64,000 nt of DNA, from assembly GCF_008831285.2 (NCBI RefSeq), contig NC_045150.1, positions 16,367,362-16,431,361 on the forward strand. The letters are read 5' to 3'. How positions within the stretch are numbered: the stretch's first letter is position 1; each line of letters starts with the position of its first letter. Under the pieces are notes generated by a model. The model ran no database searches. It had not been told where the DNA came from and saw only the letters and a program-made list of their open reading frames with translations. Shown in pieces: positions 151 to 60,717 of this stretch. Source of the stretch: Nymphaea colorata (Eukaryota > Streptophyta > Magnoliopsida > Nymphaeales > Nymphaeaceae). The position numbers and the translations under genes are program-made.

Positions 151-540
151 ACTCTTTTCTCTCCCATAAAAATCTTTACATTCTTCTCTCCCTCATTTTT
201 TCTTAAAATTTTTTGCTATTATACTAGTTTTTCTCTTTTGATTTATTTTCTTTATTTCTCTTCAAATTCTTTATCTCTCTCTCCCTCTCGCACACATTTT
301 TCTCTTAAATTCCCTTGTTCTTCTACTAGTTTTTTTTCTCTTAAAAATATTTATCTCTTTCTCTCTCTCTCTATCTCTCATTTTTCTCTTAAAATCTCTT
401 GCTCTTCTACTAGTTTTTCAATTAAAATCTCTTTCTCGTTCTGGCTTTATTTCCTTCATTCGCTTTATAAAGTTTTAACTTCTTTACCAAATACCACACC
501 ACATATAAGTTGAAGATGATGTTTGGGTAAATATGAAATG
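150..540. repeat. CT-rich degenerate minisatellite (block A copy)
   Basis: The tract is pyrimidine-rich and built from imperfect copies of a unit like tctcttaaaatctcttgctc followed by ttctactag. Counterparts occur at 13,370-13,950 and, inverted, at 60,480-60,900. It lies at the same place in each RLK segment, beyond the copia scrap on the 3' side of the kinase gene. The 91-codon ORF across it is a composition artefact rich in Ser, Leu and Phe. Confidence 0.7.
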
Positions 541-599
541 CATGGAGAATGAACATAGCCTGCCTTAAGATTAGTTCCTTTTTTATATTTACATTTTTT

Positions 600-960
600 A
601 ATACACTCCAAAAATAAAACTAAACAAATTTTGGGATGCAACCAAACCTATCAGAAAGCAATATCAAGCTGGGTGGGGGACACATATTGCAATGCTCCCA
701 CAATACTTCAATTCAAAGTAGGATCCTTGAGCTTCGAGCTGTGACCGGCAAATAATTTTATGAATGTGGCCATCGTGTTCACGGGTTTGGCTTCATGCAC
801 TTTTGTATGCTTGAAAAGATTAAAGATATTACTTTCTTTGAGACAACACCAAGTTTCCTTTTAACAATGGTGGATTCATTTCCTAGGAAATAGAATGAAG
901 ATTTTCCAAGTTTCACTTTTGCTTGTAGATGGAGAGGCCTTCTATTTAACTAACAGCATC
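600..960 (-). mobile_element. Ty1/copia reverse-transcriptase remnant (block A)
   Basis: Read on the minus strand, the sequence gives broken stretches of the copia RT tail: a segment like HEAKPVNT-MATFIKLFA, then SSKLKDPTLN and SIVGALQYVS. This corresponds to the region before the Ty1/copia RNase H domain, where ALQY(V/L)TLTRPDI is typical. Frameshifts and stops break it throughout. Equivalent scraps lie at 14,170-14,470 and 59,950-60,260 in the other two RLK segments, so the insertion predates the triplication. No LTRs are visible beside it. Confidence 0.7.
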
Positions 961-1560
961 ATTTTGGTCTTTTTGATCACTTTTTGTCCATAACACATGG
1001 TCCTTTGTTAGAGGGCCATCACATATAGCATGCTCCAATAACACATGATGCTCACAACATAAAATTCTCATCCTCCTCGTTCAAGGGCTCTTCCTTTGAT
1101 AAAATTGAATTCAGTATAAAACTTACTGGAATTGTGCATTTTTGTTGATTTTTCTGATAGGTTTGAGAAATTGTGCTGATGATTTATATGAACTATGGCA
1201 AATGAGGTGTCCTTACTTAGAATAACGCTGCAATAATGGACAAAGTTCCAACCCTCTTTCACGTAACTTGCACTGGAAGTGTGCGAGTGTTCTACAAGAT
1301 TAGTCACCCAAATGCCTTGGAAATAGAACACACAAGCATATTAAGCATATCTTTATTAAATCCTACATGCAACTGTAATTGAGAAATGCAAGTGAGAGCT
1401 CTCAATGAAAGCAATCAAACTACATTTCCACCTCCTACTATTTAGCCTCTTGGAATCCACCTTCTGAACATTTTAGCCAATGGCTGGTCGCGCCCTGGAA
1501 TTAAATCTCATGGTATATATAGATATATTTGAATTATCCTTCTATCATTCTTGTCTTCTG
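960..1560. other. 3' flank of RLK-A shared by all three RLK segments
   Basis: No gene is seen. The sequence (for example around 1,180-1,400, with tattaaatcctac and gtaattgag) is repeated at 14,700-15,060 and inverted at 59,340-59,880. It includes a possible polyadenylation signal region downstream of exon 2. In block C the matching sequence reads ggatttaataaag. The short ORFs on the minus strand have no recognisable domain. Confidence 0.5.
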
Positions 1561-2710
1561 TCATATCCTTCTCAGCCCTACAACCACTTCCTTCATGTCT
1601 ATTCTCTCATTTGGACACACTCTTGAACATGACAAGCCTATCTCCATGATCATCACCAACAGATCATTCATAGCAACTGATCTTTCAGATGGAGTAATAT
1701 TGTTTTCGTTCAAAAGATGGCTGTCAATGACATCTGAAATTGAAACAGGAAATGCTTCAGCCACCCATTGCCTCAAACTAAAATCTCCATCAAACTGTTC
1801 ATCAGTAGGCTTTCTTCCTGTAAACACCTCAAGGAGGAGAATTCCGTAGCTGTAGACATCGGCTTTCATTGACAGCTGTCCAGCCATCCCAAATTCTAAC
1901 TCAACCATTCAATAATATTATACATGATTAGTGAGCACAAAATAATTGGATAATGCTAATGTATGACACAATAGCATTGATTGCTCCTTAATGGACTTAA
2001 GATCAATTGAACCTCCAATCCTGCCTTTCTCATTTTGTATTCTGATACACATCTAAAAAGAATACAAGCTTATTATTTAGAACTGAAGTCCAATATAATT
2101 GATGTTCAAGTACCCTTAAAAGAAATCAAACATGTATCCATTTTTTTTATTGTGGAGCCTGTGACGTTGGTGGAGATTCATTAATTGTATGGTGTTGTTT
2201 TAATTCTCCTGTGACACATCTCCAGGTTCTCCTAACTATCTCATAAATTATGTGAATTATTTAATAGTGTCAATTGTCAGCCAATCTTAAGCCATTTGGT
2301 AGACAGGCATGTGTGATTAGGGATTTTTAATACAAAAAAGGAGAAAAAATTACAACTTATGTTAAAGGAAAAAGAACAATTGAAGACTATTGCTTGTTGA
2401 GAACATGTCACCAACGCATATTTGTGTACATGAGCACAAAGGAAAGCAAAAACTATTATCCAGCACCACAAGCCATATGAAAAACCAATAGTTCGTCCAG
2501 GTAGAATAGTTAATCAATGGCCTTTACATTATTGGGCTAGGAACTGCTTGTGGACGCCTTTATGTGTGAACTATTAAATCGTGATGATTAGATGGATTAT
2601 GAATGTTTGCACAACAATTATTATATTTATTGATATTATATTGCAAATCAGACACACGCATACACACACATAAGAGTATAATTACCTAGACCACATAAGA
2701 AAGGGCATAT

Positions 2711-2886
2711 ATTTTTTATTTAAACTATTTTTGAAGCAAAATATTAAAGTGTCTGGCTTTTACCAATTCCTCTCTCTCTCTCTCCCCTACATATATGTAT
2801 ATATGTAGGGGGGAGAAAGAGAGAGAGGAATTGGTAAAAACCAGACACTTTAATATTTTGCTTCAAAAATATTTTAAATAAAAAAT
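2711..2886. repeat. Near-perfect 176-bp palindrome in RLK-A intron
   Basis: The left arm (2,711-2,796) starts attttttatttaaac and ends ctacatatat. The right arm (2,799-2,886) is its reverse complement. By hand alignment the arms differ at about three bases plus a 2-base gap, and only 2 bases separate them. The right arm, including tggtaaaaaccagacacttt, has a counterpart in the RLK-B intron near 16,305-16,385. No left arm exists there, so the left arm looks like a newer inverted copy. RNA from either strand could fold into a hairpin with a stem of about 86 bp. Confidence 0.9.
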
Positions 2887-3337
2887 AAACATCCTAATAT
2901 ATTTATAAAACTATTTTGATATAAAACATGCTTTCAGTCAGGTTGTTTTTATAAAAAAAGTTGAATTTTCTACGATCAAAATGTTGATGCAATAATAGCC
3001 ATTTATTTTTGCTAATTATGAAAGCACTAGTAAAACCTAAGAAATGATCAACTTCATATATATTTTGTGTCAACCTATCCTTAAGATTATATTGATAAGG
3101 TTAGATTAAAAAAAAAAAAACTTTAAATAACATAATAAAAGGGTCTGGTTTTGTCCCTGACATGTTGATCAGGGTTCTACCAATCATTCTAAAAAAAATT
3201 TTTTGTGTTCCTAAAAACAATCACAATGCTTAAAACTGTAGCCAAGTGATTAACTATCTTCAGTGCATTTATTTAAAATGTTTTTAGTGATACAAAATAA
3301 AAGAAAGACATCTGGAGGTAGTCCGCCATTCCAATTC

Positions 3338-3344
<7 letters not shown>

Positions 3345-3403
<59 letters not shown>
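3345..3403. repeat. (TA)n microsatellite in RLK-A intron
   Basis: An almost pure TA run. It lies at the same intron location, next to the agaactggcaaaa block, as the much longer run at 16,687-16,818 in RLK-B. In RLK-C the same place holds a CT run and only a short TA stretch (57,605-57,620). Confidence 0.95.
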
Positions 3404-3406
<3 letters not shown>

Positions 3407-6284
3407 AATGGAGAGAAATAAACGAGAGAAAACAACCCGCTAGAACTGGCAAAACTTCTCACTCACTTCACCTCTCTTTATTTCACCTCACTCCTCCTGG
3501 ACCCATCCCATACACTACCCCCTCCTTTCTCAATCTATCTATGAGAGCATTATTGAAGAGAGAGAATGCACACAAACATACATATGCACACACATATGAG
3601 AACAGGAAGCCAGGGTGTGTTGATTTAAAGAAACGGACTATAATACTCGTATGACGACAAAGATAAAATTGATAAAAAGAAAAAACATTAAGAGATAGTA
3701 CCTGGCGCAACGTATCCCATGGTTCCAAGGGTGGTGGTAAGAGTCGATGACTTGTGACCAACTATGAACTTTGCAATGCCAAAATCACTAATGTATGAAG
3801 TCATGCTTTCGCCTAGAAGTACATTACGTGACTTCAGATCACAATGAAGTATGGTCTCTGAGTAACCATGGTGAAGATACTCTAAAGCACAAGCGACATC
3901 AATCATGATATCCAACCTTTGGAAGAGATTCAAGTGATAGGCACCCTAATGTAGACAGACTTCGAGGCTCCCAGGGCATGTATTGGAGAACTAGAGCCTT
4001 GAAATCTTCATTAGAGCAAGACGTAATGACTTTAACAGGGTTTTGGTGCCTGATTTGGCGCAAGATAGTGCATTCAATGTCAAAACTAAATTTAGATGCT
4101 TCCTCAAATGACAAATTAAGGACTTAACAGCCACTCTCGTTCCATTTCTAGAATTCCTTTGTGCACTGAACCAAAGCTTCCGCTCCCAAGAACGTTTGCA
4201 TCACTGAAATTGCTCATTGCATGCAATAGCTCTCTGTAAGAAATCACTGGGAGTGCATTTTTTGTAATCTTTCAATGTTGTAAGGACATTTCGACAACCC
4301 CCTCTTTCTACAGCATGAGATACCAATGAGTGTGCAAATAAAGACCAAAAGTGTTCAGCCTCCAATTGTGCAAGCGGCAATGATTCTGGCCGCATTGCTC
4401 TTACTTTGCCTCTCTGTTTTGTCTAAGCACAATGGGACATGGAATTTGCGAGCTCCATAGAGTTCATAGTTCCCTAGGAACGACTCGGCAGAAAGGTTTG
4501 CAAACATTCCACCAGTTGGAGTCTCTCCTTCCAATAGATTGAAGGACAAGTCCAAGACCTGGATGTGTTGAAGCTTCTCCAATTATTTTGGTATCTCACC
4601 GGAAAGCTTGTTATGGGAAAGGTCAATAGTGTCAAGGTTTAGCATGTGATCAAGTTGTTCAGAAATGTGACCATCAAATGTGTTCCGAGAGAGATTCAAA
4701 GAATCTACATTTGGAGCTTTGATAATGATGCAGGCAACTCCCCACTCAGCTTGTTTGCAGAGATATCCATGTGGTTCATCGTGGCAAAATTCCCTAGACC
4801 CAAGGCAGGTGACCAGTGAAGGAGTTGTCCTGCAAGTATAGCTCCCACAAGTCCTTCAACTCACAAAGACCAGGCGGTAGTGTTGATGAAATTTGTTTGT
4901 GCTTGAATACAGCCTTTGCAAACTAGTGAGATTGTTTATAGAGCTTGAAATTGACCCAATTAGCATGTGTGTCCAAATATTAAAAGTATACATGTGGACC
5001 AACTGGTAGATTGCTAGTGGGATTGGGCCTTCTAATATATTGTCGTAAAGAAACAACACCTGTAAGTATAGCTTCAACAAGTCCTTCAACTAACAAATAC
5101 TAGGCAGTAGTGTTGATGAAAAATTGTTTGATGTTAGATCCCCTCTTGAAAACTAGTGAGATTGTTTATAGAGGTTGAAATTGACCCAATTAGCATGTTG
5201 TGATCAATATAAAGAACATACATGCGGACCAACTGGTAATCGATAGTGGGATGGGGCCTTCTGATGCATTGTTATCAAGATACAACAGTTGTAAGCTGTG
5301 CATTTGTCCTATATTTGGTGGAATGAGCCCTTTTATTTTGTTGGAACTCAAATCTAAGGAAATTAACTTGGTCAAGTTGGCTAAACCCAATGGGATAGTA
5401 CCTTCAATCAGATTAGAGGGAAGGTGAAGTCTACACAAGGTAGTTGTTAGGTTTCCAACAAAGGCCAGAAAATGCCATTCAGAAGGTTTTGTGGCAGATC
5501 AACTTCCTCTAGCAGTCGACAGTTGGTGAAGGATGTGAGAATGGAGAGCTCACGGTTGCAGGGACATTGGTCAACATATTTCCCCAAAGGATAAGGTGCC
5601 TGAGTTGTGGCAGACTACCTAATTCTAATGGTATCGTACCACTAAATTTATTGTTTTCTGCAGCAAGAAGTTGAAGTCTTGTAGCATTAGAAAGAGAAGC
5701 CGGGAGCAGGCCATCAAAATTGTTTGTACCCATATAGAGTGTTTGGAGATTGGGCAGGAAGCAGCCAGCATCGTTTGGGAGATGCCCTGTTAGTTGATTG
5801 GTCATGAAACTCAAAGTCTCAATAGCATATAGGTTAAACAAGCTCTCAGGCAATGTATCAGTGGGATTGTTCATTTCCACACTAAATAATGTCAAGCAGG
5901 TTATGCTTCCCAACTCGGGAGGGATGTACCCGTGCATATGATTTTGACCAATATTAAGGTGCTCCAGCTTTGAGAGGTTGACAAAAGTGACTGGAATGGT
6001 GCCGGTGAGCCTGTTACCATAAAGTTTATGTGCTTCAGTTCCAGCAAACTGCCTAGGAACTCTGGAATGCTTCCACAGAATTCGTTTTCTATTACCAAAA
6101 GTACTTGGATACAAGGACAATGGCTCAGCGTTTGCGGGATCAACCCTTCAAAATTGTTTTTGCTTATGAAAATATTCTCTAACAGTGGGAGATGGCTATC
6201 CGATTTTTGAATCAATGGGCACTCAGTACACCTAGCCATCATGGTGAGATGGCATGTCTTGAAAGTCCGAAAAGGCAAAGCCAA

Positions 6285-8702
6285 AGCTTTGCTGTCTTGC
6301 TAACTGGCAAATTCTTCAAAGACTGGCTGGCCTTCAACTTTGAATGACATGACTTTGAAATTTGCTCATGACTTGACAAAATCAGCTTTTGAAACAAGTG
6401 GATGAAGTCGCCTAGCAAATTCCATGTTGTCGGCCGATCTGGTGATTTAAATGACTTCTTTGTGAATCAACATAAAATATGAAAAATTATATTCTTTTTG
6501 AAAAATAAATAAACAGTATAAAAAACTAATTAAAAGCAACTTTTTTTTTAAACAGGTGGGCAATTGACAACTTTGGTTTGAAATTGAATAGAGTTGAAAA
6601 GTGGTAAAATGAAATAAGATACCAGCAAGACCAAGAAAAAGACTCATGCATCAACACAACACATAGTACCTAGTTTAAAAATGGTTTCTCGGTTATGCTG
6701 GAACTTTTGAATTCATGAAAGAACTTTGGGATTAATTTGAGGCAAGTAATGCATCCTGTTGCTGCTTGATCAGGACAAGGAAACAAACATTCAACAGTCG
6801 ACGGAAGAATCACCACCAAATGTCTCAAAACAGAAGTGAAAGAAATGCTCTCTGTCATTTGATCGTATTACTTGTTACTTGTTAGTCAAAAGCAGAATTT
6901 ATGTTGCATGAACAGCTTGCTGGGGAACTAATCGTCAAGCAAAATCAATCTGTGCAATGGAGAAAGATCAGCAGAGCTGCAATTAACTAATGCTGATATA
7001 CAAGGTGACTTTGCCAAGAATTGACTCAACCCTTTATAGGCACACGAAAGGAAGCAAAGCAAAACACACAGATACATGTTAGCGGTTAAACTGCACAAAA
7101 AGAGAGCTTAATTTCTACGTAAGACTGAAGGTGCCAAAAAGCATATTATTTGACAATCATTTCTTTGGCAACTTATAGCATAACTGATACTCAAATATTT
7201 AATCCACAAGAAAAATAGGATCAACATTACTTGCACAAGCATATCAGTGCTCTATATGTTAAAATGTGTGTGTCAGAACCAAACTATAGTTTCAAAATTT
7301 TAAAGAGACCAAAGTAGAATTTTTCAATTTTTTTTGAAATTTACATATCAATGTTTGAATTTCTTGAAACATCCTTCCCTGGTGTGTATTGTAACTGTGG
7401 GTCTGTCTTAAGTACTACTAGCAATTTTGGCTTGATACATAATATCCTGTTAGATGTTGTGGAATTTTAATAGCTTAATGATTTACCCAATAATAAAAAG
7501 GCAAAAGCCAAAAATCAACAATCGAAAATCATAGCAACAAAAGAACATGAATAATGAGCTTCATTTTGGCAATGTTTTGTAACATATTCTATTGATGTTT
7601 TAATCAATTGAATGAATTTCACTTTTATCGAAGTGCTTCCTAAATGTTGTTTGTCACATTCAGGCCTGTACATGAGTATAAAAATTCGATCACGCACCTA
7701 GTATGCTGCACATATATTTCAGAGACTTATATCTTGCTTCAGGCTAGTAATCAAACCTGGTGATTGGTCATACATATTATAGCTGATAAAAATCACTGAT
7801 CCAGTAGATGTGACCATCACATACAGATTCTAGTATTTGGATCACTATGTTACTGGAATGACAAGAATCCAGTATGCATAAGTTAAAGCACATAAATAAG
7901 CAATTATTTCACATAAGACTTCAAAATATACAATCATATATACCTGTGGAAGATAAGGTGATGCTCCAAAAAAATAAAAAATCATAATATCATTTACATG
8001 CTTGCAGCTCTAGGAACAAAGCATTAAGTACGGGTCGACTGGTAATCACAACAGTATATCGTTGTGGTATGTATCTGCCCTAATATTTAGTGCAGATTCA
8101 TGGAATGTTGTAACATAATATTACATAAATCAGCATAATATTTGCAACAGATATATAGAATAGTTACATACTGTTATTGTTGTCAAACGGTAACCAAAAT
8201 CAAGATAAGATATAAGTATATTCAGCTCTGTTGGCTCGAACTTCACTCGAACTCAAACTGCTGATGCTAAACTCAGGCCAAGATTGGGCTGCAACTTAGC
8301 CGGGCCATTATTTAAAAAAAAATCAATTTGGACATGAGTAGAAACAGCCGGATTGAGTTGGAACTTGCTAGCAAGGGGGAAATCTGATGTAGCTGTTTAT
8401 TGTCGTGATGATATTGTAAATAATTTTTACATGTTATCTTATTGATCTTACTCAAGTTGAGCTTGCCAAGCTCGAACTCTACTCGTTTACTTAACTTTAA
8501 ACCAAACACGGCTCATTTATTAGATAAGTTGAGCTCGATCCGAGTTTAACTAAGAGAGGCCAAGAGTGAATCGGAGTTGGCTTGCTTAAAAAATCTGAAC
8601 TCTTTGCTTCAAATAATGAAAACCACAGTTGTTCAGTCGATTCCAACGTTCCATAATTCATTAGCTTTGTAAAAAATTATTTTTAGATGGAACTAGGATA
8701 GA

Positions 8703-10289: not shown

Positions 10290-10450
10290 AGATTTGATTA
10301 CCTGCAACCAACTTCAATCTGCTCTTTGGATGGTGTATCTCACAACAATGGTGCCTTGAGCAACTTTGCCCCCAACAAAATGAACATCCACTTCAATGTG
10401 CTTGCTTCTATTATGAAAAAGTTGGAATAGCTGCTAAATATTTTGCACTC
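10290..10450 (-). mobile_element. Copia RNase H scrap (block B)
   Basis: On the minus strand the frame reads SKHIEVDVHFVGGKVAQG followed by TIVVRYTIQRA. This matches the Ty1/copia RNase H tail, whose usual form is (T/S)KHIE(V/I)D-HF(V/I)R-K and then an ADIFTK-like end. The inverted counterpart is at 63,380-63,500. It is too short to have any function and is a marker of an old insertion shared by blocks B and C. Confidence 0.75.
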
Positions 10451-11419
10451 ACATTGTCACACCATATGGATGGTGGATTTTTTTTGTTCTTATTCCAAGT
10501 TCAAATAGAAATATGTCTATCACGTTGCATCTTCTTATATGTTTGTTGGCCACTTCAATGTACATCATCTTTCTTTTGTTCTTATTTCAAGTTCAACTAG
10601 AAATGTCTACCACGTTGCATCATCTGCTAGACTGAGAAAAAACTTGCTGTTTCTTTGAACTTCCTGCAACAAGATTCAGTCCCAAGAAGGCTGCATAAAT
10701 GTTGACCATCGATCAATCATTTGGGCATTTGACCCTATCCGCGTCACTATATATATGAACTTTTTGTTCTTGGATGGTTTGAACATAGTAACAGAAAACA
10801 TGTTTACTTCTTAAAAAATGGCAGTTTAAAACTTTAAAAACACGTTTTTTTTTAAAAAATGTTAAAAACAAAAAAATGCATTTAGACCCTTACCGGCAAA
10901 AAATGTTAAAAAATAGTAACGCGTTTTTTTGTTTTTTCACTTTTTTCATTTTTTTAATTCCAAACAGTTTTTTTTATTTTCTATTTTTTATTTGTTGCAA
11001 ATCTATTTATCTTGTGATGTTTGTGTTATTAGTTTCACACTTATTTTATTTTTTTCCATTTCTAGTTTTTTAAAATTTTTAATAATTTACCATATTTTTT
11101 TAAGCTCGCCGTACTATACTTGAGAAAAGAGTTACCATTTAAAACTACGAGACATTATTTGTAACTATGTTTTTGAAATTTGAAGATTACACCATAATAA
11201 ACGGTAGCTTTTAAGAATCTTAATATTCCCTTGAGCGCTCCCCATTGAGATTCCATAGGGTCCTAAATAAATTAGTTGAACCTTGTAGTTATCCCCAAAT
11301 TTCCAAGTTTCATATATATCTAGCATTTTCACAATTATTTTCAACAATTTTGGGTCTGAAATACTTCAATTTAGCGCAGTTCTGATCCAATTACACTCTA
11401 ATTTGGTTATCGACTATAT

Positions 11420-11790
11420 TTTGGAACTCATCTGAATTTAAATCTAAACATCCAACCCAAGCCCCAAACCAATCTAGGACGATAATTCATGTCAAATCTA
11501 GATCTATACCCAATCCCAAGTCAAGATCCAAAAACCAAGCCTTAGATCCAAATCTGGATCCAAATCCCAACTTTAGATAAAAAATAGATCCCTAGATCCC
11601 AATATGGATCTAAAACTGAGCCCTAAATCTAAAAGTAAGCCTCAGATCCAAATTCAAAATTTTTTATCCCAAGTAGAATCTTAGATCTAGACCCAAAACC
11701 AAATCCATGTCCCGGATCCGAAATCCTGCTCTAGATCCAAAAAGAAGGTTAAAAACTCACATAGACTCAAGAATCAAAGTCCGGCCTAAA
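11420..11790. repeat. Degenerate GATCYAGATCCAAA-rich tract
   Basis: Words such as agatccaaat, tctagatc and ctggatcc recur roughly every 15-25 bases with no fixed period. The counterpart in block C is 62,690-63,020 (reverse complement). It probably derives from a tandem repeat inside a retroelement. Confidence 0.6.
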
Positions 11791-13369
11791 ATAGGAAAAT
11801 AGATTCAGAAAATCGCCCACATATCTAGGTTAAATAAAAGAACCAAAAATCTAGATAAAAAAAAAATTTCAAACTCAAATGTTTGTAGTGGAGCTCAAGA
11901 ATCAATTCCCAACGTCATTCGCAAGCTCGCCCTCGCTTTTCAATTTGACTCAGCTTCGTAAAATCCAAATCAGGATGTACATCCATATTTCAAGCCTAAG
12001 CACCTATCTAATCCATGATCCAACCTTTGTCATCGATCTGGACCCTCCCATTCAAGGAATTACATCCGGATTGAAAGCAAACCTGGAATCATAAAAAATG
12101 TTGCTAGACCCGTTTTATAAAAGGAATATTTTACCTCTTAAAAGTATTACATATTTTTGTTGCTAAACTTTTATTTTTTAGTGCGGGACCTACCTGGGGA
12201 AGCAACAAATTTTGGCAGCGCTTGGAACACAGCCTAGAGCTCTTGGTGCGCTACTAAGTGCTCTGGCATAGGGTGTTTGCATGGGCCAAGGGCTAATCTC
12301 CACAAGTCAAAACCTATAAAACAAAATAAAAATAAAAATAATTCAAAAAATGAAAAATTCATAAGAAATCTTGAGAAATTAAAACTCTTTCAAATGTTGA
12401 ATTTTGGCTTTATTTATTTTTACAAGCTAACCTTTGAGGAACTTGATCCTTGGGTATAAGCTAACCTTTGAGGAACTCCTTGAGCCCTCTAGCTAAGAGA
12501 TTGGAAGTCCTTTTTATCTCTCTTCCTTCATCTATTCTTCTCTCACTCTTTCAATACTTCTTTATCTTCAACCTTTGGATTCTCCTTCTTTTCCAACCTT
12601 CATCTTCAACCAGTGGAAAGGAGAGCATGTGGAACACCCTTGGAAAGCTTCTTCAACAAGTCAGAGTTCTCATCTCTTCTTGAACTATACCATCTCGAGG
12701 CATGTAGTCTCATTTTCTCTTGTTATTCCCTTCTTCCTTCCATTTACATCTCTATGAATAGATAATGTGGATGTATGGCTAGTTGATTGTTCTATTGATA
12801 GATGGATGAACGATGAGGATGAGAGCTTGAGGTGGGATTTATTTTTTCTTTTACATTGATTTTTTAGGTTGAGGATTGTCCAAACTCAAGAAAAACACCA
12901 TGAATACCGAGATGTTAAATGCATTTTAGTATTATCACTACGGTTAGTTTTGACATCTTTCAAATCTCATTCCATTGATAAGATACCTATTGATCGTCCT
13001 ATTAGTAGTCTTAAAAGAGTGATCCACCTTTAAAAGAGTGTCTTCCTAACGGGATTGAAGCACAAGAGAAGCCTTCTTCAACGATTGTTGTTTTTTTCTT
13101 TCATAGTTTAGTCTCTCTCTCCGGCACCCAATGGTGGGAAAGGCATACTTTTTTGCAATACATAAGAGTAAATGAAATATTTTTAATTTTGTCTATATAA
13201 CTTATTTTTAAAAAATTTTAAAAATAGGTCCTCCATCCATGAGCCCAATTGCTCTCCTGCCTACATAAAAATATTGAAGTTGAAAATTTTCAAATTTATC
13301 TCCTTAATCTTAATTTCTATATAAAAGAAATTGAGGGGTTAAAATATCACGTTATTATTTCATTTTTCT

Positions 13370-13950
13370 TCCTTCTTTTATCCGCACTTTCTTATTTTTC
13401 TTTTTTTCTCTTAGAATCTTTAATCTCTTTTATTATTCTCTTAAAATCTCTCTTTACGGATTTTCCTTTGTCTATTTCTTTTCTCTCCCTTAAAAATCTT
13501 TACATCTCTCTCACTTTCATTTTTTTCTTAAAATCGTTTGCCATTCTACTAGTTCTTCTGTCTTTATTTCATTTCTTTCTTTTCAAAATCTTTATCTGTC
13601 TCTCTCTCCCTCTGGGCACACATTTTTCACTTAAGCACCCTTGCTCTTCTACTAGTATCTTAAAAATATTATATATATATCTCTCTCTCTCATTTTCCCC
13701 TTAAAATCTCTTGCTCTTCTAGTAGTTTTTCTCTTAAAATCTCTCTAACTTCTACTAGTCTTTCTCTTTATTTCTTTCCACCCACCTATAAATCTTTCAT
13801 CTCTCTCTTAATTTTCTCTTAGAATCTCCTGCTCTTTTACTTGTTTTTTTCTGTCTATATTTTATCTCTTAAAATTTTTATGTCACCCTCTCTAACTTTT
13901 TCAATAAAGGTTTATGAAATACTTTCCTTTAAAAAGAATTTCCTTCCTTC
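13370..13950. repeat. CT-rich degenerate minisatellite (block B copy)
   Basis: Imperfect repeats of a unit like tctcttaaaatctcttgctc plus ttctactag, longer than the block A copy. It ends at the shared sequence ttcgctttataaagttttaa (about 13,950), which also occurs near 455 and, inverted, at 60,470. Confidence 0.7.
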
Positions 13951-14059
13951 GCTTTATAAAGTTTTTAACTTCTTTACCAAATAACACACCACATATAAGT
14001 TGAAGCTAACCTTTGGGTAAATATGAAATGATGGAGAATGAACATAGCTTTAAGATTAG

Positions 14060-14480
14060 TTACCCATGATAAAGGTGTCAGGAATGGCCAAGCCTCATAA
14101 TGACGGTCTAGTTCTTTTTTTTTTCTATTTACGTTTTTTAATACACTCCAAAAATAAAACCCAAACAAATTTTGGGATGCAAACAACCTTGTTTGCAGAG
14201 GAGGCAATGTCAAGCTGGGTGAGGACACATATTCCAATGCTCCACAATACTTCAATATAAAGTAGCATCCTTAAACTTTGAACTCTTACTGGCAAATAAT
14301 TTTATGAAAGTGGCCATCAGCGTGTTCATGGGTTTGGCTTCATGCATTTTTTGTATGCTTAAAAGGATTGAAGTTTTTACTTTCTTTGATATAACACCAA
14401 GCTTCGTCTTGACATTGGTGGATTCACTTCCTAGGAAATAGAATGAAGATTTTCCAAGTTTCACTTTTACTTGTAGGGGG
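14060..14480 (-). mobile_element. Ty1/copia reverse-transcriptase remnant (block B)
   Basis: A minus-strand ORF (14,252-14,464) reads KTKLGVISKKVKTSILLSIQ, then KMHEAKPMNTLMATFIKLFA and SKFKDATLY. This is the copia RT/RNase H junction, where K(M/F)-DAKPV-TP and SKFKDATLYRSIVGALQY are typical. It breaks immediately after DATLY and continues in other frames toward 14,066. Its copies in blocks A and C are broken differently. Confidence 0.75.
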
Positions 14481-15646
14481 AGGGGTCTTCTATTTAACTA
14501 ACAGTGTCATTTTCATCTTTTTGATCATTTTTAGTCTATAACACATTGTCGTTTGTTAGAGGGCCATTACACATAACATGGTCCAATAACACAATGTTGC
14601 TCACAGCATATAATTATCATCCTCCTCATTCAAGGGGTTTCTTTTGATAAAATTGGACTTCAGTCCAAAACGTACTACATTGTTCATTTTCATTCATTCT
14701 TCTTGTTGTGCATGTTTTGGTAGGTTTGACAGACTGTGCTGAGCATATAGTACACCAAAATTTTAGAAAATTGAAAGGATTTATGTGAGCTATGGTTATT
14801 GAGGTGTCCTTACTTACAATAAGGCACAAACATATGCAATAATGGACAAAGTTCCAAGCCTCTTTCACGTAACCTGCATTGTAAATGTGTGAGTTGTTCT
14901 ACAAGATTGGTCACCCAAATGCCTTAGGAATAGAACACACAAGCATATTAATCATATCTTTATTAAATCCTATATCCAACTGTAATTGAGCAATCCTAAA
15001 TCCTATATCCAACTGTCATTGTGTCTATGGATATATTTGAATTATCCTTCTATCATTCTTGTCTTCTGTTGTATCCTTCACAGCCCTACAACTACTTCCT
15101 TCATGTCCATTCTCTCATTTGGATACACCCTTGAACATGACAGGCCTATCTCCATGATCATCACCAGCAGATCATTCATACCAGCTGATCTTTCACTTGG
15201 CATAGTATTGCTTTCATTCAAAAGAAGGCTGTCAATGACATCTGAAATTGCAACAGGAAATGCTTCAGCCACCCATTGCCTCAAACTAAAATCCCTGTCA
15301 AACTGTTCATCAGTAGGATTTCTTCCTGTAAACACCTCAAGGAGGAGAATTCTGCAGCTGCAGACATCAGCTTTGGTTGACACCTTTCCAGCCATTCCAA
15401 ATTCTAATTCAACCATTCAACAATATTAAACATGATTAGGGAGCCCCAAAATAATTGGATAATGTTAATGCATGACACAATAGCATTGATTGCTCCCTAA
15501 TGGATTTAAGATCAATTGAACCTCCAATCCTGCCTTTCTCATTTTGTATTCTCATGCACATCTAAAAAGAATACAAGATTATTGTATAGAGCAGAAGTCC
15601 AATATATATGATGTTCAAGTACCCTTAAAGAAATCAAACATGTATC

Positions 15647-15669
15647 CATATATATATATATAGGGATAC

Positions 15670-15719
<50 letters not shown>
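15647..15719. repeat. (TA)n microsatellite in RLK-B intron, acceptor side
   Basis: Two TA runs separated by tagggatacatatg. The equivalent position in RLK-A (about 2,140-2,150) has only an oligo-T run, so the expansion arose after the copies separated. Confidence 0.9.
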
Positions 15720-15722
<3 letters not shown>

Positions 15723-16270
15723 GGAGCCTGTGAGGTTTGTTGAGGTTCATTAATTGTATGGTGTTGCTTTCAACTCTCCGGTGACAGATCTCCACGTTCT
15801 TCTAAATATCTCACAAATTGTGTGAATTATTTAATAGTGTCAATTGTCAGCCAATCTTAGGCCATTCGGTAGACAGGTACGTGTGATTAGGGATTTTTAA
15901 TACAAGGAACAAAAATTACAGCTTATGTTAAGGAAGAAGATCAATTGAAGACTATTGCTTGTTGAAAATATGTCACCAACACATATTTGTGTACATGAGC
16001 ACAAAAGAATGCAAAAACTAGTATGCAACACCACAAGCCATATGAACAACAAATAGGTCATCCAAAAATAGTTAATCAATGACCTCTACATTATTGAGCT
16101 AGGAACCGCCTGTGCATGTCTTTATGTGTGAACTTACCAAATCATGATGATTCGATGGATCATGGGTTTTTGCACATCAATTAATGTATTTATTGATATT
16201 ATATTGTGAATCATACAAACACACACAGAAACACTGAAAAGAGTATAATTACCTGGACCACATAAGTCAG

Positions 16271-16305
<35 letters not shown>

Positions 16306-16686
16306 GATAGAGAGAGAGAAAAAAATTGGTAAAAACTAGACACTTTAACATTTTTTCTTAAAACATATTTTAAAATAAAATATTTACAGCCTAAATATTT
16401 ATAAAAATATTTTGATATAAAAACATGCTTTGAATCAAGTTGTTTTTTGTAAAAAGTTGATTTGTCTATTATCAAAATATTGATGCTATGATAGCCATTC
16501 CTTTTTGCTAATTATGAAAACACTATTAAAGCCCCAAAATGATCAACTTAATATATATTTTGTGTTAATCTATTCTTATACTTAAGATTATATTGGTAAG
16601 GTTACATTAAAAAAAACACTTTAAATAACATAATTAAAGGGTCTGGTTTTTGTCCCTGACGTGTTCGTCTGGTTTCTACAAATCAC

Positions 16687-16821
<135 letters not shown>

Positions 16822-18763
16822 AGAGAGAAAACAGTCCACTAGAACTGGCAAAACCACTCACTTTCTCTATCTCTCTTTATTTCACCTCACCTTCTCTTGG
16901 GCCCCTCCCATACACTCCCCCCTCCCTTTCTCAATCTCTCCATCAGAGCATTATTGAAGAGAAAGACTGTACACACACATACTCACACATCGAGACAGAC
17001 AAAATTTATAAAATTAAGAGATAGTACCAGGTGCAATGCATCCCATGGTTCCAAGGGTGGTGGTAAGAGTCGATGACTTGTGACCAACTATAAACTTTGT
17101 GATGCCAAAATCACCAACCTATGCAGTCATGCTTTCGTCTAGAAGTACATTACGTGACTTCAGATCACAATGAAGTATCATCTCCGAGTAACCATGGTGA
17201 AGATACTCTAAAGCACAAGCGACATCTATCATGATATTCAATCTTTGGAAGAGATTCAAGTGATGGGCACCCGAATGTAGACAAACTTCCAGGCTCCCAA
17301 GAGGCATGTATTGGAGAACTAAAGCCTAGAAATCTTCATTACAGCAAGACGTAATGACTTCAACAAGGTTTCGGTGCCTGATTTGGTGCAACATTGTGCA
17401 TTCAATGTCAAAACTTTTAGATGCTCCCTCAAATGACAAATTAAGGACCTTAACAGGCACTGTTGTTCCATCTGCTAGAATTCCTTTGTACATTGAACCA
17501 AAGCTTCCACTCCCAAGAAGTTTGCATCACTGAAATTGCTCGTTGCATGCGATATCTCTCTTTAAGAAATCACTGCGAGTGTAACTCCTCGTAATCTTTC
17601 AATGTCGTCAGGACACTTTGACAACTCCCTGTTTCTATAGCATGAGTACCAATGAGTGTGCAAACAAAGACCAAAAGTGCTGAGCCTCCTATTGCGCAAG
17701 CAGCGACGACTCTAGCCGCATTGCTCTTACATTGCCTCTCTGTTTTGTCTAAGCACAATGGGACATGGAATTTGGGAGCTCCACATAGTGCATAGTTCCC
17801 TAGGAACGACTCGGCAGAAAGGTTTGCAAACTTTGCACAACTTGGAATCTCGCCTTCCAATAGATTGAAGGACAAGTCCAAGGCCTGGATGTGTTGAAGT
17901 TTCTCCAATGATTTTGGTATCTCTTTGGAAAGCTTCTTTTGGGAAAGGTCAATAGTGTCAAGGTTTAGCATGTGATCAAGTTGTTCGGGAGTGTGACCAT
18001 CAATTGTGTTCCAAGAGAGATTCAAATACTCCAGCATTTGGAGCTTTGATAATGATGCAGGCAACTCTCCACTCAGCTTGTTTGCAGAGATATCCATGTT
18101 GATCATCATGGCAAAATTCCCGAGACCCAAAGGCAAGTGACTAGCGAAGGAGTTGTCCCACAAGTATAGCTCCCACAAGTCCTTCAACTCACAAAGATCA
18201 GGTGGTAGTGTTGATGATAAATTGTTTGAGCTTAGACCCAGCCTTTGCAAACTAGTGAGATTTTTTATAGAGCTTGAAACTGACCCAGTTATCATGTTGT
18301 GTCTAATATCAAAAGCGTACATGTGGACCAACTGGTAGATTGATAGTGGGATTGAGCCTTCTAATGCATTGTTGTCGAGAAGCAACACCTGTAAGCTGTG
18401 CATCTGTCCTATATTTGGTGGAATGAGCCCTTTTATTTTGTTGGAACTCAAATCTAAGTCAATTAACTTGGTCAAGTTGGCAAGGCTATGGATAGTACCT
18501 TCAATCTGATTAGAGGAAAGGACAAGTTTCGACAAGGTAGTTGTCAAGCTTCCATCAGAGGCAGGAAGAATACTGTTCAAAAGGTTATCTAATAGATAAA
18601 CTTCGTCTAGCATCTGACACTGGGTGAAGGATGTGAGAATGGAGAGCTCACGGTTGCCAGGGACATTAGTCAACATATTTCCCCAAAGGGAAAGGTATAT
18701 GAGTTGTGACAGACTACCTAGTTCTAATGGTATTGGACCACTAAATTTATTCCTTTCTGCATA

Positions 18764-19577
18764 GAAAAGGATAGAAGGGCATGCCTAGTTTACTTCAAGG
18801 CCGCCTTCAACATTCACCGTATCCATCCAGAACCTGTTGTAGACAGTACTCTTCACCATCTCAGTTCCAGGCAATCTTGATGCTCACTTCTTGACACCAG
18901 AAGCATCCCTTCCAGCAGAAACAATATCCTGGACATCGACATTTTCTCCAATATATTCTTCCTTTTGGCAAGATACCATCATTTACTGATTACAAGATTA
19001 GCTCTTGACAGAATTATAATGAAAGATATTTGGAAAATGGAAACAGATCTACCGCAAGTGGTAGGTGCGAGAAGCCCTAGTCGTCCTACTCTTCAGTCTT
19101 CACATTCATCTTTTTCATCAGGCCTTGTTAGTTAATAGAGGCATCATTATGTCTGATATTGATCGATCTCAAACAATTTGATATGAAAAAAATTTAATAT
19201 CTGATTAAGAAATCAGATCGATTCAGATTTAAGAAATGACATCTGATTGAATTCAGATATATATAAATATGTGGATTTAGATCAAATTTAATTGTAAATG
19301 AATATCATATATCCAATGCTCTTACATGAAAATTGGCCAAATATGGTTCAAAATAATTTGGAGTCGAATTCTATGAATGTAAAAAATGAATTCAGATCAA
19401 ATTCAAATTTACATTAAATCCCCCCATCCACCTGCCACTTGTTAAAAGCCTCCATTAATGTCAAATGAGTTCCAAAATTCCATATCAAGCTATAAGTTTT
19501 CCCACTCAACTTCGGCCTCTGTAGGTAGGACCTGCTGTTGCCCCAAATATATTGTTCACTGTCCATTCAATGAACCT
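18764..19577. other. Sequence 5' of RLK-B, with an unidentified coding-like scrap
   Basis: Homology to the other RLKs ends abruptly here. On the minus strand 18,790-18,960 gives EEYIGENVDVQDIVSAGRDA, a stop, then LPGTEMVKSTVYNRFWMD and TVNVEGGLE. This has the composition of real protein but I do not recognise it. The rest (19,140-19,440) is AT-rich with repeated atctgatt/aattcagat words and looks like decayed repeat. Confidence 0.4.
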
Positions 19578-23790: not shown

Positions 23791-24251
23791 GGAATGAAGA
23801 GCAATTAATAGACCCAACAACCACACGGTAAGTCAAGTCAGCCTGTTTGTTGTTTAATAAAAACAAGTGGCCGATCTGTTCATGGTAAGTCAAGTCTTTT
23901 ATCATATGTTTGAATGAGAAGCCCAAAAAAAAAAAAAAAAAAAGAAAAGAAAAAAGAAGAAAAAACAAAGAACCGAAGGACTCTCAATTCTTCCTGCCTC
24001 TTAGTCATGGGTTGTGTCCAGACCTTAGTCAAGCTCTCTCACAATGGCAGGAGAGCTCCTGCCAATGCCTTACGCGGATCTCAGCATCCATGTTGTTATG
24101 AAATCTACAAACTACATATGCATGATTTGATAAAACATGTTGGATCCTAGGAAAGATTCGACCCTCGGATCTCAGATCCAAGGCAATACAAGGAAGGGCA
24201 CATATTTTATACATGGATTTGGACTATATAAACCTCACTCCTTAAGGGTTG

Positions 24252-24440
24252 ATAATTGTCATTTTCAAAAAGTGTTAATGAAGCCAAATGAATTTTGGCT
24301 GCTGTACCCCTAACCCACTTTTTCTAAGGGTATAGTATAGTGATGCTAATTGTCATTTTCAAAAAGCTTTACTGAAGCCAACTGAATTTTGGCTGCTTTA
24401 TGACTGATCCATTTTATTTGATGGGTGTAGTATAGCTGAT
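24252..24440. repeat. Two-copy tandem repeat of about 95 bp in D1
   Basis: Each unit starts aattgtcattttcaaaaag, passes through aatgaagccaa and ttttggctgct, and ends at tagtatag-tgat. The same two units are present in D2 (42,383-42,570), so they predate the D duplication. Confidence 0.85.
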
Positions 24441-24621
24441 CTGATTGACGGGTTGATCAAAGTTCAGTCATCAATTCCATTTTAATGGGTGCTATTTTTT
24501 TGTATTGTAAACAGTGGATCCTCTTTCGAGTATCTCCTCTTCATCTGACAAACACTTGTTCCAATGATGCAAACTTTTTGCTCATCTCTGCTGTATATAG
24601 CCAACCTTTTTCTCATCTCTG

Positions 24622-24672
<51 letters not shown>

Positions 24673-24811
24673 AACACATGCATGCCCATTTTGTTGTTCA
24701 ATTAAAGGCAACATTGACTTCTTCCGTGTATCTATTTGCTCATTGGATGCTTGAGCAGGCAAGAAGGAAAATAGAGAGAGAAGCGGTCGTGCAAATCATC
24801 TCAGCTCACGG

Positions 24812-24853
<42 letters not shown>

Positions 24854-25682
24854 GTGTCCTTGTGCTGATCAATAGTTTCAAGAGGACCACGTGAACTAGA
24901 AATTACCCATTTTTGAAGATGTCAATAGTAAATTTACATTTTCGTTTAATGGATTATGTTGCAATGAAAAAACGGGCAATTATGTGTTGGGAACCCGCAG
25001 GGAGTGGAAAACCGTGGATGCATGAAAGGAAAACAATGGAATGTTGGGCACCCAAAAAGAGTGAAAAACTGTGGATGAAAGGAAAAACTATGGAAAGTTA
25101 ATGACAATATTCAAACAACCCCTTACCAAACAGAAAAGGCGGACATCTCCTTTAGGATGATCCCAAGTTACGTTCCGGACGATCTACAGATCATCTTACC
25201 TTCTTAACCCAGGCCTCATGAAACTCATGCCTGTCCCCACCTTACCTGCTCAACTCAGGCCCCATGAAAGTTGAATCTCTCAAGATCCACGCTATTGGCT
25301 CTCGGGTCGCAATCCATATGATGAATCAGCCTAGTCTGACCTGCACATTTCTTAGTTCAAGGTGTTAAAATGGATAAAGGATCATAATGACAACTATTTG
25401 CTTGTCAAACCTAGTTTACATGGGAAACTACTTTTACCATTGGGTTTCCAATCGTAAAAACGTATCACTTCTTACTGCTGCCTACAGTTGCCTAGTAGAG
25501 GAACTTCATGGTGTGCTAAAGGGTGCAAAGTGGCTGGTCGAGCTGGAGAGCCCATAAGAGTTTGGTAGTTAGCTCGATTCTTATAGATGCCATTTCTTTG
25601 AAGTACAAAAGGCATCATACAGTACTCTTGAGTTAAACGAAATAACCATCAGTTCACGGCTGTGAACCCAAGACAAGGGCAA

Positions 25683-25982
25683 TCAGTACAGGAATGGATG
25701 TGGGTTCCATTCCACTCCCCCAAATCCTAGAATTTCTTTATTATATTGTATTAGTGTTTTTAAACATTTGCTACAGATACCAAACATGGAATGGACCCTA
25801 GATCCAAATTCCTTCCTTGCATGATCCAGGTTCAAACAAATGCCGGTGTTAAATAGTGGTTCCAATTTCCAACACGATGCAAGCTTTGTGGCAGCAATAA
25901 GGAGATTCCTGAAAGGTGGATCATTTGTTTTCTGGTCTTCCAAAGGTGGTCGCATGTCGTGGAAGATATGACTCATGTCCAC
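25683..25982 (-). other. Conserved-looking ORF in D1, function unknown
   Basis: This 99-codon ORF includes SHIFHDMRPPLEDQKTNDPP and FRNLLIAATKLA. The D2 copy (44,009-44,221) keeps the first 45 codons but is then frameshifted. With only two copies, similarity by shared descent cannot be told from coding constraint. I see no domain, signal peptide or membrane segment. It is probably non-coding. Confidence 0.25.
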
Positions 25983-26559
25983 CTGATGGTATGATATGCA
26001 GTGTGCAGAAAGTGATGCAGTCTACAAAGGGATGAAGTTTGATGTTGCAAGATCGCCATTCATGTCCTTCCTGACTCCACCATTTATAGGTGGATTTTCG
26101 TGATCATGATATCATGTCGATTCTTCGATGTCCCAAGTACTGCTTTACCTTCCCTACTTTTTATTTGGACGGTAAATAATGAATGTTATTAGATGATTTC
26201 TCTCTCTCTATATGCGTGTGTGTTTGTGGTATGTCGATAACCTTCGGTTCTTAATTTTCACCAGACTGATTCCATATCTCCAATACCAATAATTTCATAA
26301 CATATGATTCTAAGACCAATGATCCGAAACTTCAAAATATTTTAGTCCTTAAACGGGTGTAAGAGGTGTAATCCACAAGAATATAATATTTAGGTTGAAA
26401 ATATTAAGATCAATATGGGAACTTGACGTAATCTCACATACCCTGTTCTTTTTGAAATATGGGAACATTTCGCCCCACAAATGAATCAGGACAAAATGTG
26501 ATTCGGGCCAAACCCCTAACTCTCTGCACCAATTAGAAGTCGATAAATTAAGCATATTA

Positions 26560-26688
26560 AGATCAATACTCCAATTATACATCCAAATGTTGAAAATAAA
26601 AGAAAAGATCAATACTCCAATTATACATAAAAATGTTGAAAAAAAAGATCAATACTCCAATTATGCATCCAAATGTTCAAAATAAGAA
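26560..26688. repeat. Three-copy minisatellite (unit about 43-45 bp) in D1
   Basis: The unit is gatcaatactccaattata followed by catccaaatgttgaaaata. D2 has the same three units at 44,809-44,933. Confidence 0.9.
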
Positions 26689-27370
26689 AGTGCAGCAGTG
26701 GTGTTCGAGGCCAATAAAAGTACAGCCAAAATTTTCTTGCAGTTCTTGAGGGGCATAACATAGCTGCTCGCATTTGCAGGCCAATAAAAGTCTAGTCATC
26801 ATTTTGGTTCATGTGAGTGTTTTTTTTTTAATACTGCAAATGGTGGATATGGGACAATCTAGTTCACGGATGTCCTACTCTCCATCCAAGTCATGAAGCA
26901 GCCATAGATTAGATTCTAGTGTAATAGAAAAAGGGGAAGGGCTTCAGTCAGGATATCAAAGGAACCTTTGTAAACTGAGTAAGAAGTAATGACTGGAGAC
27001 CAATATAATTCTTCGTGGTTCAACTTTTTTCTGTGGGTTTTTTGGGTAAAATTATGGCACATTTGATGCACATAAAGTGGTTGAATTTTTTGAAATTGGT
27101 TTATAATTATGAATCATCATGAATTAAGAAGGTAAGGTGTAGACTGATCAACTCCGACCCACAGTTTTCCATATCCAATTAAGTCAATCTTCCTTACTTA
27201 ATTCAAATTCATATTTGATGAGACTTGGAATTTTGAAACCAAAGTTCCAACTTTTATGTAAAATTGGGTCGGATCCTTCAAAGATTTCCTGCTCAAATAG
27301 GAAACCTTATTTATATACTAAGACATGATGACAAGGTCTTATACTAATTACTAATACTTGTTGGGTAGAG

Positions 27371-28373
27371 TCTGAAGCAATCAAAATTTTTTGATAACAT
27401 ACAAATCATGATAGTAACTGAAATCTGAATCTGATTTCCAACAAATTTGACTTCAAATGATGCCCCCTCATGATCTTCCTCCTCTGCATGATCATGCTTC
27501 AACTCCTAGCTGTATCTTTTCCATTCCTCGCCAGTAAAAGAAAAGGTCATGCCAACCGTGGTCAGGTTTGAGGTGTATGCCAATACCAAAATTGTTGCAT
27601 GACTGCTAGTCCTCAGACGCTCTTGTATTTCATCTTCCTTTCCAAAATTGACTTCATAATCGCTCGATACGGTGGAGCGTTCATGCCTCCAATGAATGAA
27701 GCATGGCAGGCTAGCCAGAAAGTGAGGGACGCGGTTAGGTTGGAAGACCTATGATTTGTTTAAAATTCAAACAATCCTTCCTTAATTTTTTAATTTCTAC
27801 AATCATTTCTTTCTCCTTTGTTGAGCATACGTTGCCACTTTTCTTGCCTACCCTGTCTCGTGAGGTGTTCTTCCTTGATTTATCACTCCAAATCTAACGG
27901 GTATAGTTGCCTTTTTGTTTGATTTGTCATGATCTTCATAATTTCCTTCATTCGTTGAGCTGGCATGATCTTCGCAATTTCCTTCATCCAGTGAGCAGCA
28001 GTTACAGCTGGGACCGAAGAAGTTCTTGATTATAGGACGTTGAACTTCGAGTGTGGACTCAAAGACGACACAGTCGTCTTCCAAGAGTTGTACATGAATG
28101 GGTGATAGGACCTTATTTAACACTACTCTCTTTATCATTAGCTCAGGTTTGATGGCATCTGCTGTATTTGGAAACATGAAAGGCAGCTGCTAGTGGCCAG
28201 TAACAAACCCATGAGACAGACTTCCCGATATCTCGAATCGATGCAAACGTTCAAATGCTAGTTCCTGCAACAAGAAAACAAGAGCATTGATCAAGCAGCT
28301 GCAGCAACAAACAATGCCCTCAAACTACTCCTACAACTAGTAATTGATGACTAGCAGTTTGTGAGGTCATGCC
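27371..28373 (-). pseudogene. Orphan TNL C-terminal exon (copy 1), 3' half of a TNL gene
   Basis: A splice acceptor (TTGCAG|GAACTAG, exon start 28,264) opens a frame that matches the TNL C-terminal exon at 36,251: ELAFERLHRFEISG, then one stop (TGH-stop-QLPFMFPN). An open run of about 110 codons (27,848-28,177) follows with KPELMIKRVVLNKVLSPIHV, VFESTLEVQRPI and an acidic EGNCEDH/EGNYEDH double repeat. Further 3' (27,450-27,680) a second conserved piece reads LRTSSHATILVLAYTSN and GMTFSFTGEEWKRYS. I infer a post-LRR C-terminal domain of a TNL, of the kind often found after the LRRs. The retrotransposon cuts the preceding intron at 28,373, so no LRR or NB-ARC is attached. Confidence 0.65.
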
Positions 28374-28835
28374 TGTAAGGATCGTTTGGTGGGTCAGCTT
28401 ATGTCAATGAGAAATTTTAGACATTATGGCTATCTTAATGTAAATATTCGATTAAGTGATTGCGTTTTGGGATATCACGTCATTTAACATGGTATGAGGT
28501 ATTTTTATAATATATAGATACCTATACGCAAGCACGGACTCTTTGATGGGTTGAATCTGAAATTGCTCATAATATAAAATGTAGTGTCCCTAAGGTCGTG
28601 CAGAGAGTTGAAACATCATTTTCTACGGTTGTCTCTTTTCCATCGGAGAGAAACCGCATGTACTCCGCACAGACCCTGGAAGATCCTACTGCAACAACAT
28701 CGTCCGCTTGTTCAGATGGATTCAGGTACGTCTCTGCTACAGTTAATGTTTTGATTCAGTGATTTAGCATGAACGAGATCTTGTTTTAGGGCATATTCGT
28801 TTGTTTGTATATGCATGAGGAAATATCTCCTATCA
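28374..28835 (+). repeat. 5' LTR of the copia element
   Basis: 462 bp, TG...CA ended. It contains the LTR segment with gtttgtatatgcatg near its 3' end. It was aligned by hand to 34,818-35,281 along its whole length. Confidence 0.93.
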
Positions 28836-34817: not shown

Positions 34818-35281
34818 TGTAAGGATCATTTGGTGGGCCGACATATGTCAATGAGGAATTTCAGAGATTATGGCTATATTAATGTAAATATTCCATTAAG
34901 TGATTGCATTTTGGGATATCACGTCATTTTATATGGTAGGGGTATTTTTATAATGTATAGATACTTATACATAAATACGGACTCTTTGGTGGGTTGAATC
35001 CGAAATTGCTCATAATATAAAAGGTAGTGGTCCCTCGGGTCGTATAAAGAGATTGAAACATCACTTTCTAGGGTTGTTTTTTTCCGTCTAAGAGAAACCG
35101 CACATTTCCGCACAGACCCTGGAATATCCTACTGCGATATATATCATCGTCCACTTGTTCGGATGCATTCAGGTATGCTTCCGCTACAGTTAAAGTTTTG
35201 ATTCAGTGATTTAGCATGAACGAGATCTTGTTTTAGAGCATATTCATTTGTTTGTATATGCATGTGGAAATCTCCCCATCA
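34818..35281 (+). repeat. 3' LTR of the copia element
   Basis: 464 bp, TGTAAGGATC...CCCATCA. The next bases, tgaagcactcaaaa, match the sequence at 27,371 in the left copy of the TNL 3' region, not the sequence beside the 5' LTR. Confidence 0.93.
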
Positions 35282-36251: not shown

Positions 36252-36393
36252 CTGCGACAACCAAGAACAATGAACAAGAGACTTTCATGAAGATTGAGCA
36301 ACTTCGTGCCCCACGGCAGCACCATTAGACTGCTCGTACTACTTGTAAATAAACCAATGAGGGCTAGCAGTTAATTTGTTAGACCATACATAC

Positions 36394-57302: not shown

Positions 57303-57799
57303 GTACGTACTATCTCTTATTTTTCTATCTTTTATAAATTGTGTCTATTAAGTGTGAGTATAATTGCCTGAACCGTTTCTTTAGTCAACCAGGCCTGGCT
57401 TTGAGTTCTTATATGGTGTGTGCATGTGTGAACACACTCTCTTTCTCCTCAATAATGCTCTCACGGTCATATACAAGTCAAAGACGATGAGAATTGCATG
57501 GGAGGGGCCAGAGAGGTGATGAGGTGAGATAAAGAGAGAGAGTGGGTGGTTTGCCAGTCCTAGTGACTCTCTCTTTCTTTCTTTCTCCCTCTCTTTCTCT
57601 CTCTCTCTCTATATATATATTCATTCATTTATTTATTTATATGAAATCAGCTGACTAAGTTTTTTTTTTTTTTTGTATTGTTTAAAACATCGCAAAAAAA
57701 TGCATTGATGATAGCCAATGTTTTGGCAACCATAAGAAAGGAGTCATCAGTAACATAGGTAGCCCACTGAATATATATATATATATATAGGTAGCCCAC

Positions 57800-57835
<36 letters not shown>

Positions 57836-60480: not shown

Positions 60481-60717
60481 AAGCGAAGGAAGGAAATTCT
60501 TTTTAAAGGAAAGTATTTCATAAACCTTTACCAAAACAGTTAGAGAGAGAGATATATACAAAGATTTTAATGAGAGAGAAAATATGGACAGAGAAAAACC
60601 AGTAAAAGAGCAAGAGATTTTAAGAAAAATTAAGAGAGAAAAATAAAGATTTATAAGAAGTAGGAAAGAAATAAAGAGAAAAACTAGTAGAAGAGCAAGA
60701 GAGTTTAAGAGGAAAAA

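Follow-up and report, generated by a model that had tools for sequence, protein, structure and literature searches.

Introduction

Short-range template switching often yields perfect inverted repeats, and AT-rich surroundings are enriched among such events, as far as the accessible part of the published account goes (PMC7954356). The accessible portions of three further reports link the MITE families MuTAnT, SaTar, Micron, and Ac-mMITE to Mutator-like elements (PMC4486113, PMC5907723, PMC8449440). In the accessible main text of a survey of 207 plants, Micron is reported chiefly from Poaceae and Rosaceae, and Nymphaea is not mentioned (PMC12550479). In maize, an inverted duplication of Mutator sequence, Mu killer, can silence in trans, according to the available text of the study (PMC3440606). 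Our search of the literature combining Nymphaea, MITE, transposable element, small RNA, and hairpin found no report. New small-RNA loci have been proposed to arise through template-switch events, and a paper of about 2023 is said to give miRNAs such an origin.

Here, we analyse a palindrome in a stretch of 64,000 nucleotides of the genome of the water lily Nymphaea colorata (hereafter the window, to which all plain coordinates refer). It lies in an intron of RLK-A, a receptor-kinase gene copy with two paralogs in the window, RLK-B and RLK-C.

Results

A long hairpin within a probable pseudogene

The palindrome is near-perfect and spans 178 bases (2710-2887); local alignment of its two arms shows 3 mismatches and one 2-nt gap (Table 1). 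The original prediction had placed it within the kinase intron of RLK-A, which our analysis confirms, with coordinates corrected by one base at both ends. The exon pieces on either side of this intron match positions 102-169 and 173-241 of the Pfam Pkinase model. Folding of the RNA, proposed earlier as a check, gave a stable long hairpin on the plus strand (-124.8 kcal/mol) and on the minus strand (-127.5 kcal/mol), with z close to -24 on each, and none of the 200 shuffles per strand folded equally well. The palindrome was also the sole hit when the window and 40 loci (183,540 bases in all) were scanned for ungapped palindromes, with a spacer of up to about 80 nt allowed and dinucleotide-like arms left out. 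A chance origin was rejected on these two results, the fold shuffles and the single scan hit. Rfam gave no match at gathering score within the window, and ARAGORN reported no tRNA. We read the apex, CTACATATATGTATATATGTAG, as the leftover of a (TA)n tract.

Table 1. Positions of the palindrome, the element, and the homologous places within the window.
Feature	Position	Strand	Remarks
RLK-A kinase intron	1896..3701	-	GT...AG, 1,806 nt, splits GYVAP/E; read from sequence
Outer junction CATATAT	2706..2712	+	TAT is a 3-bp flank/arm microhomology if the ancestor was L011-like
Left arm	2710..2796	+	Most likely an inverted copy of the right arm; RLK-A only, absent from the 40 other places read
Palindrome apex	2788..2807	+	Read as remnant of (TA)n tract
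Right arm	2801..2887	+	Read as ancestral; consists of a GA-rich tract and the end portion of the MITE
MITE-like element, ~380 bp	2807..3188	+	Right arm forms its left end; position of left border approximate
(TA)15 in RLK-B intron	16273..16302	+	Homologous place, putative pre-event arrangement
Same element in RLK-B intron	16303..16688	+	Bordered by (TA)n at both ends; has the right arm alone
RLK-C intron, homologous place	57755..57830	-	(TA)n plus perfect 32-bp tandem duplication (57755-57821), no element

The gene that hosts the palindrome appears to be broken. In the RLK-A region (1510-6300), stop-free stretches of the minus strand reach at most 212 aa, the coding region is in short frames, and the kinase and LRR pieces fall in different frames. 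RLK-A is therefore probably a pseudogene. Its LRR region also carries a tandem duplication of about 230 bp (4829-5295). At a larger scale, the RLK region and its flanks recur in a third, inverted copy, that of RLK-C (55147-63486 versus 449-6192 and 10338-18766). Other duplicated blocks of about 84-89% identity pair 24029-26711 with 42171-44962 and 27373-28835 with 34818-36260, the order being rearranged in the latter pair.

Paralogous introns carry a single arm

The homologous place of RLK-B (16247-16416) consists of the flank, (TA)15, GGGG, and the right arm alone, after which the sequence continues as in RLK-A. The alignment thus bears out the earlier observation that the RLK-B intron has only the right arm, at a homologous place. 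RLK-C, a third paralog (minus strand, about 57.2-58.5 kb) that was absent from the original prediction, has the flank and a (TA)n tract in its intron and neither arm nor element. Farther along, its sequence resembles RLK-A 3189-3337 (score 70.5, against 51 for the largest of 500 shuffles), and the comparison with the element is at shuffle level (43.5, against a shuffle mean of 43.0). RLK-C thus has the appearance of a related empty site, though the element may have been lost from it.

We searched the host genome (407,766,735 bases in 783 contigs) with window positions 2680-2920. Forty of the 490 first-look candidates were scored, RLK-A among them, and the other 39 were read together with RLK-B (L009-L048). 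Among the 40 candidates scored, RLK-A alone had the full palindrome with opposite-strand hits, the others having a single arm; a second palindrome would presumably have ranked near the top of the candidate list. Each of the 40 places read has one right-arm match, and none of them, RLK-B included, has a match in the orientation of the left arm (0/40, from the 40 of 490 candidates scored). The RLK intron flank is present in 39 places, L031 being the one without it. A TA tract, counted when at least 4 units lie within about 70 bp, precedes the right arm in 32 of the 40 (31 RLK places and L031). The tract and the near flank are missing in L036, L037, L038, L039, L041, L043, and L047, and the arm is shortened in L046, so these eight places say less about the junction.

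Over flank and element, L009-L014 are 3.5-4.8% diverged from RLK-A, and RLK-B is 11.9% diverged. In a tree built from RLK-A and 15 of the 40 loci (16 rows, midpoint root only), RLK-A groups with these six loci with 100/100 support. Their inner order is partly open, and the positions of L014, L015, and L020 are rough because each has only part of the element. All six tree-mates are arranged as flank, (TA)n, and right arm.

The right arm as the terminus of a dispersed MITE

The right arm is no ordinary intron sequence but represents one end of a (TA)n-associated MITE that is dispersed in the genome, about 380 bp long and of the Micron/MuTAnT/SaTar type, a point that the original prediction had missed. 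The left border of the RLK-A element is approximate because a GA/G tract lies there. In RLK-B, the block that follows (TA)15 measures about 386 bp and ends at another long (TA)n tract. We rejected the idea that the palindrome is itself a complete MITE: all 40 other places read are one-armed, and the right arm extends into a longer element.

At L031 (1072-1880, on G000:C7), two copies of the element stand head to tail with only (TA)n between them, as in published SaTar arrays. With the second of these blocks as query, 1478 first-look candidates on many contigs were obtained and 40 were scored. From those 40, we read 16 dispersed copies, distinct from the places described above, and left C13:16356224, C480:4232, and C8:892894 unread. 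None of the 16 matches RLK sequence, and they are hence non-RLK places. A TA tract (at least 4 units, within 70 bp) adjoins 14 of the 16, on both sides in 8, and none was found within that distance at L063 and L064. The inverted ends scored above all 300 shuffles in 14 of the 16 copies (L063 and L071 fail), a result that is partly inflated because some test windows include repeat tracts. The inverted ends of the RLK copies are weak (13 of 500 shuffles for RLK-A and 17 of 500 for RLK-B; 2 and 21 of 1000, respectively). For L031, the corresponding counts are 0 of 1000 for the first copy and 39 of 1000 for the second. On this point the dispersed copies were more informative than the RLK copies. 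By eye, candidate target-site duplications can be seen at L063 (8 bp, TTAAATCA, in a copy that fails the inverted-end test) and at L064 (10 bp with 2 mismatches). The element fits the MuTAnT, SaTar, Micron, and Ac-mMITE group and is perhaps of a Mutator-like class.

Direction and age of the change

A gain of the left arm is the strongly supported direction of change. The arm was most likely created on RLK-A's own lineage, because it is absent from all 40 places, 32 of these show (TA)n before the right arm, and the six tree-mates lacking it are so little diverged from RLK-A. The view, drawn earlier from RLK-B, that the left arm arose later as an inverted copy is thereby supported by 39 further places.

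Across the 63 columns of the arm core, the right arm of RLK-A is identical to those of L009, L010, L012, and L014, and the left arm has 2 differences from each of these five sequences. Because it is equally near to all of them, sequence alone leaves the template copy undecided. RLK-A's own right arm is the likelier template, over a sister copy, because it is nearby. One of the left-arm changes is shared with L031 and, depending on the alignment, with L027. The third difference between the arms, in the GA tract, sits on the right arm (in comparison with L009).

The divergence between left and right arms is 3/77 (95% CI 0.8-11%), or 2/63 in the core (0.4-11%). It is lower than that between the right arms of RLK-A and RLK-B (12/79; Fisher p 0.027). 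Halved, these point estimates give about 0.016-0.02 per lineage, which approximates the terminal branch of RLK-A (0.019); the event may thus date from roughly the time when RLK-A became a separate lineage, though the uncertainty is wide. Correction of one arm by the other could make the palindrome look younger than its true age. The original prediction had called it fresh. The later copying that this implies stands, but the arms differ about as much as RLK-A does from its five nearest paralogs (3.5-4.1%), and the age is moderate and uncertain.

A template switch and its alternatives

A four-point template-switch model beats one-way alignment with each of four proxies of the ancestor, with gains of 207 (L011), 193 (L009), 211 (L014), and 151 (RLK-B). 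These gains are inflated by linear gap costs on (TA)n tracts of variable length, since controls (90 ordered pairs among 10 paralogs) have a median of 13 and reach 113, not 0; we read the control gains as arising from the same cause. Template switching, which had been named earlier as one example of a mechanism, is the best that we found and is well supported, its gains of 151-211 exceeding the control maximum. When L011 is taken as the ancestor, the segment copied in reverse corresponds to RLK-A 2710-2787, and TAT is shared with the flank at the outer junction. With L009, the segment is 2707-2787 and the switch point is elsewhere (2706/2707).

The reading that we prefer, with a probability of about 0.85, joins two events: insertion of a MITE into a (TA)n tract of an ancestral RLK intron and, later, a template switch in RLK-A that made the palindrome. 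In an ancestral receptor-kinase gene, a small, non-autonomous, microsatellite-associated MITE would have entered a (TA)n tract of the kinase intron, and the element would then have been passed on to dozens of gene copies. For the polymerase-level steps, we infer that, in RLK-A only, a strand copied from the element into the self-complementary (TA)n may have folded back on itself or switched to a sister template, after which some 80 nt of the element end would have been copied in reverse. Synthesis would have resumed on the original template in the AT-rich flank, with the loss of most of the (TA)n, leaving a near-perfect palindrome centred on the remnant of that tract.

The direction of the change would be reversed if the palindrome were ancestral to RLK-A and RLK-B, as a fold-back element, with its left arm deleted elsewhere between short AT repeats and the arms of RLK-A kept alike by inter-arm copying. 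The CATATAT repeats that flank the left arm of RLK-A would permit such a deletion, and the alignment join falls there. This history requires both the loss of the left arm in all other sampled lineages (0/40) and arm-to-arm correction, and the arms are closer to one another than RLK-A is to RLK-B (3/77 against 12/79, p 0.027). We consider it highly unlikely. Just as improbable, in our judgement, is that the left arm derives from a second, truncated transposon, inserted head to head into the same (TA)n in the style of SaTar/Micron arrays. The family does include at least one (TA)n-joined array (L031), and SaTar arrays have been described in the accessible text of one report (PMC5907723). Yet the left arm is the version of the RLK-A clade, the non-RLK L031 being 84% identical over 75 right-arm bases, and it ends inside the element, short of a second end. 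Moreover, among the 40 arm rows, a set distinct from the 16 dispersed copies, none is closer to the left arm than the right arm of RLK-A, with which four RLK copies are tied.

Fold-back reads are known from long-read data, and an artefact of this kind, in the assembly or the library, could in principle produce a palindrome. A fold-back read should give nearly identical arms, but those of RLK-A differ by 3 bases and the 2-nt gap, and both the flank and the right arm continue as in the paralogs. We regard an artefact as extremely unlikely, and the template switch in RLK-A remains our preferred explanation.

Predicted targets of the hairpin

Non-repetitive 21- and 24-mers of the hairpin were compared with six hand-set exon spans of RLK-A, RLK-B, and RLK-C, all within the window, and had no site there even when up to 4 mismatches were allowed. 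All of the 987 non-self k-mer sites lie outside these spans, the largest groups being in TA tracts and in the RLK-B copy. The suggestion in the original prediction that the hairpin yields small RNAs against RLK transcripts is thus not supported so far, and RLK-A itself looks frame-broken. Since the exon spans have no k-mer sites, any small RNAs would act, if at all, on the introns or chromatin of RLK copies and on transposon copies, and not on the mRNAs tested. When up to 2 mismatches are allowed, between 8 and 43 of the 43 core 21-mers match per RLK place (39 places), and all 43 match in L009-L013, among others. The dispersed copies are matched by 0-12 each (n=16), and L031 by 10. Our default assumption is that the hairpin would have no function at the RNA level.

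Discussion

The locus offers a clean natural case in which a microsatellite beside a MITE seems to have given rise to a long hairpin in one step, with dozens of paralogs that keep the putative pre-event state. A (TA)n-associated MITE family is thereby documented in a water lily, and the palindrome, as a candidate new small-RNA locus, can be tested against small-RNA reads. One such role, which we think very unlikely, is that of a miniature Mu-killer-like locus, whose hairpin would give 21-24 nt RNAs acting on copies of the element, including those in related receptor-kinase introns. RLK introns would be the main targets, because the 21-mers match them much better than the dispersed copies (8-43 versus 0-12). 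If true, the chromatin state of a whole family of defence-type genes would be coupled to a single broken gene.

The resemblances to described systems differ in kind. Our element is like the microsatellite-targeting MITEs, as these appear in the accessible text of the reports (PMC4486113, PMC5907723, PMC8449440), in its length of a few hundred bp, its inverted ends, its (TA)n flanks, and its (TA)n-joined array. Unlike MuTAnT, SaTar, Micron, and Ac-mMITE, it has its own end sequence, about ATTGGTARAAACCAGAC. The proposed origin of the left arm resembles short-range template-switch mutation, in which, according to the accessible text, one event in AT-rich DNA turns a flank and unique sequence into a near-perfect inverted repeat and then returns to the template (PMC7954356). 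The cases given there differ from ours, which would have started in (TA)n beside a transposon end, comprises about 80 nt, and concerns one gene copy of a plant. As in the origin of plant miRNA genes by inverted duplication, an inverted copy creates a hairpin; unlike in those genes, the copied sequence is an intronic transposon and not a coding target gene. Maize Mu killer, as described in the available text, is likewise an inverted duplication that includes terminal-repeat sequence of Mutator, and the palindrome, like it, could be transcribed from a gene (PMC3440606). Mu killer, however, contains transposase sequence, has a proposed hairpin of about 4 kb, and silences MuDR (PMC3440606), whereas the palindrome of RLK-A, known from DNA alone, has as its arm less than 90 nt of a non-coding MITE end.
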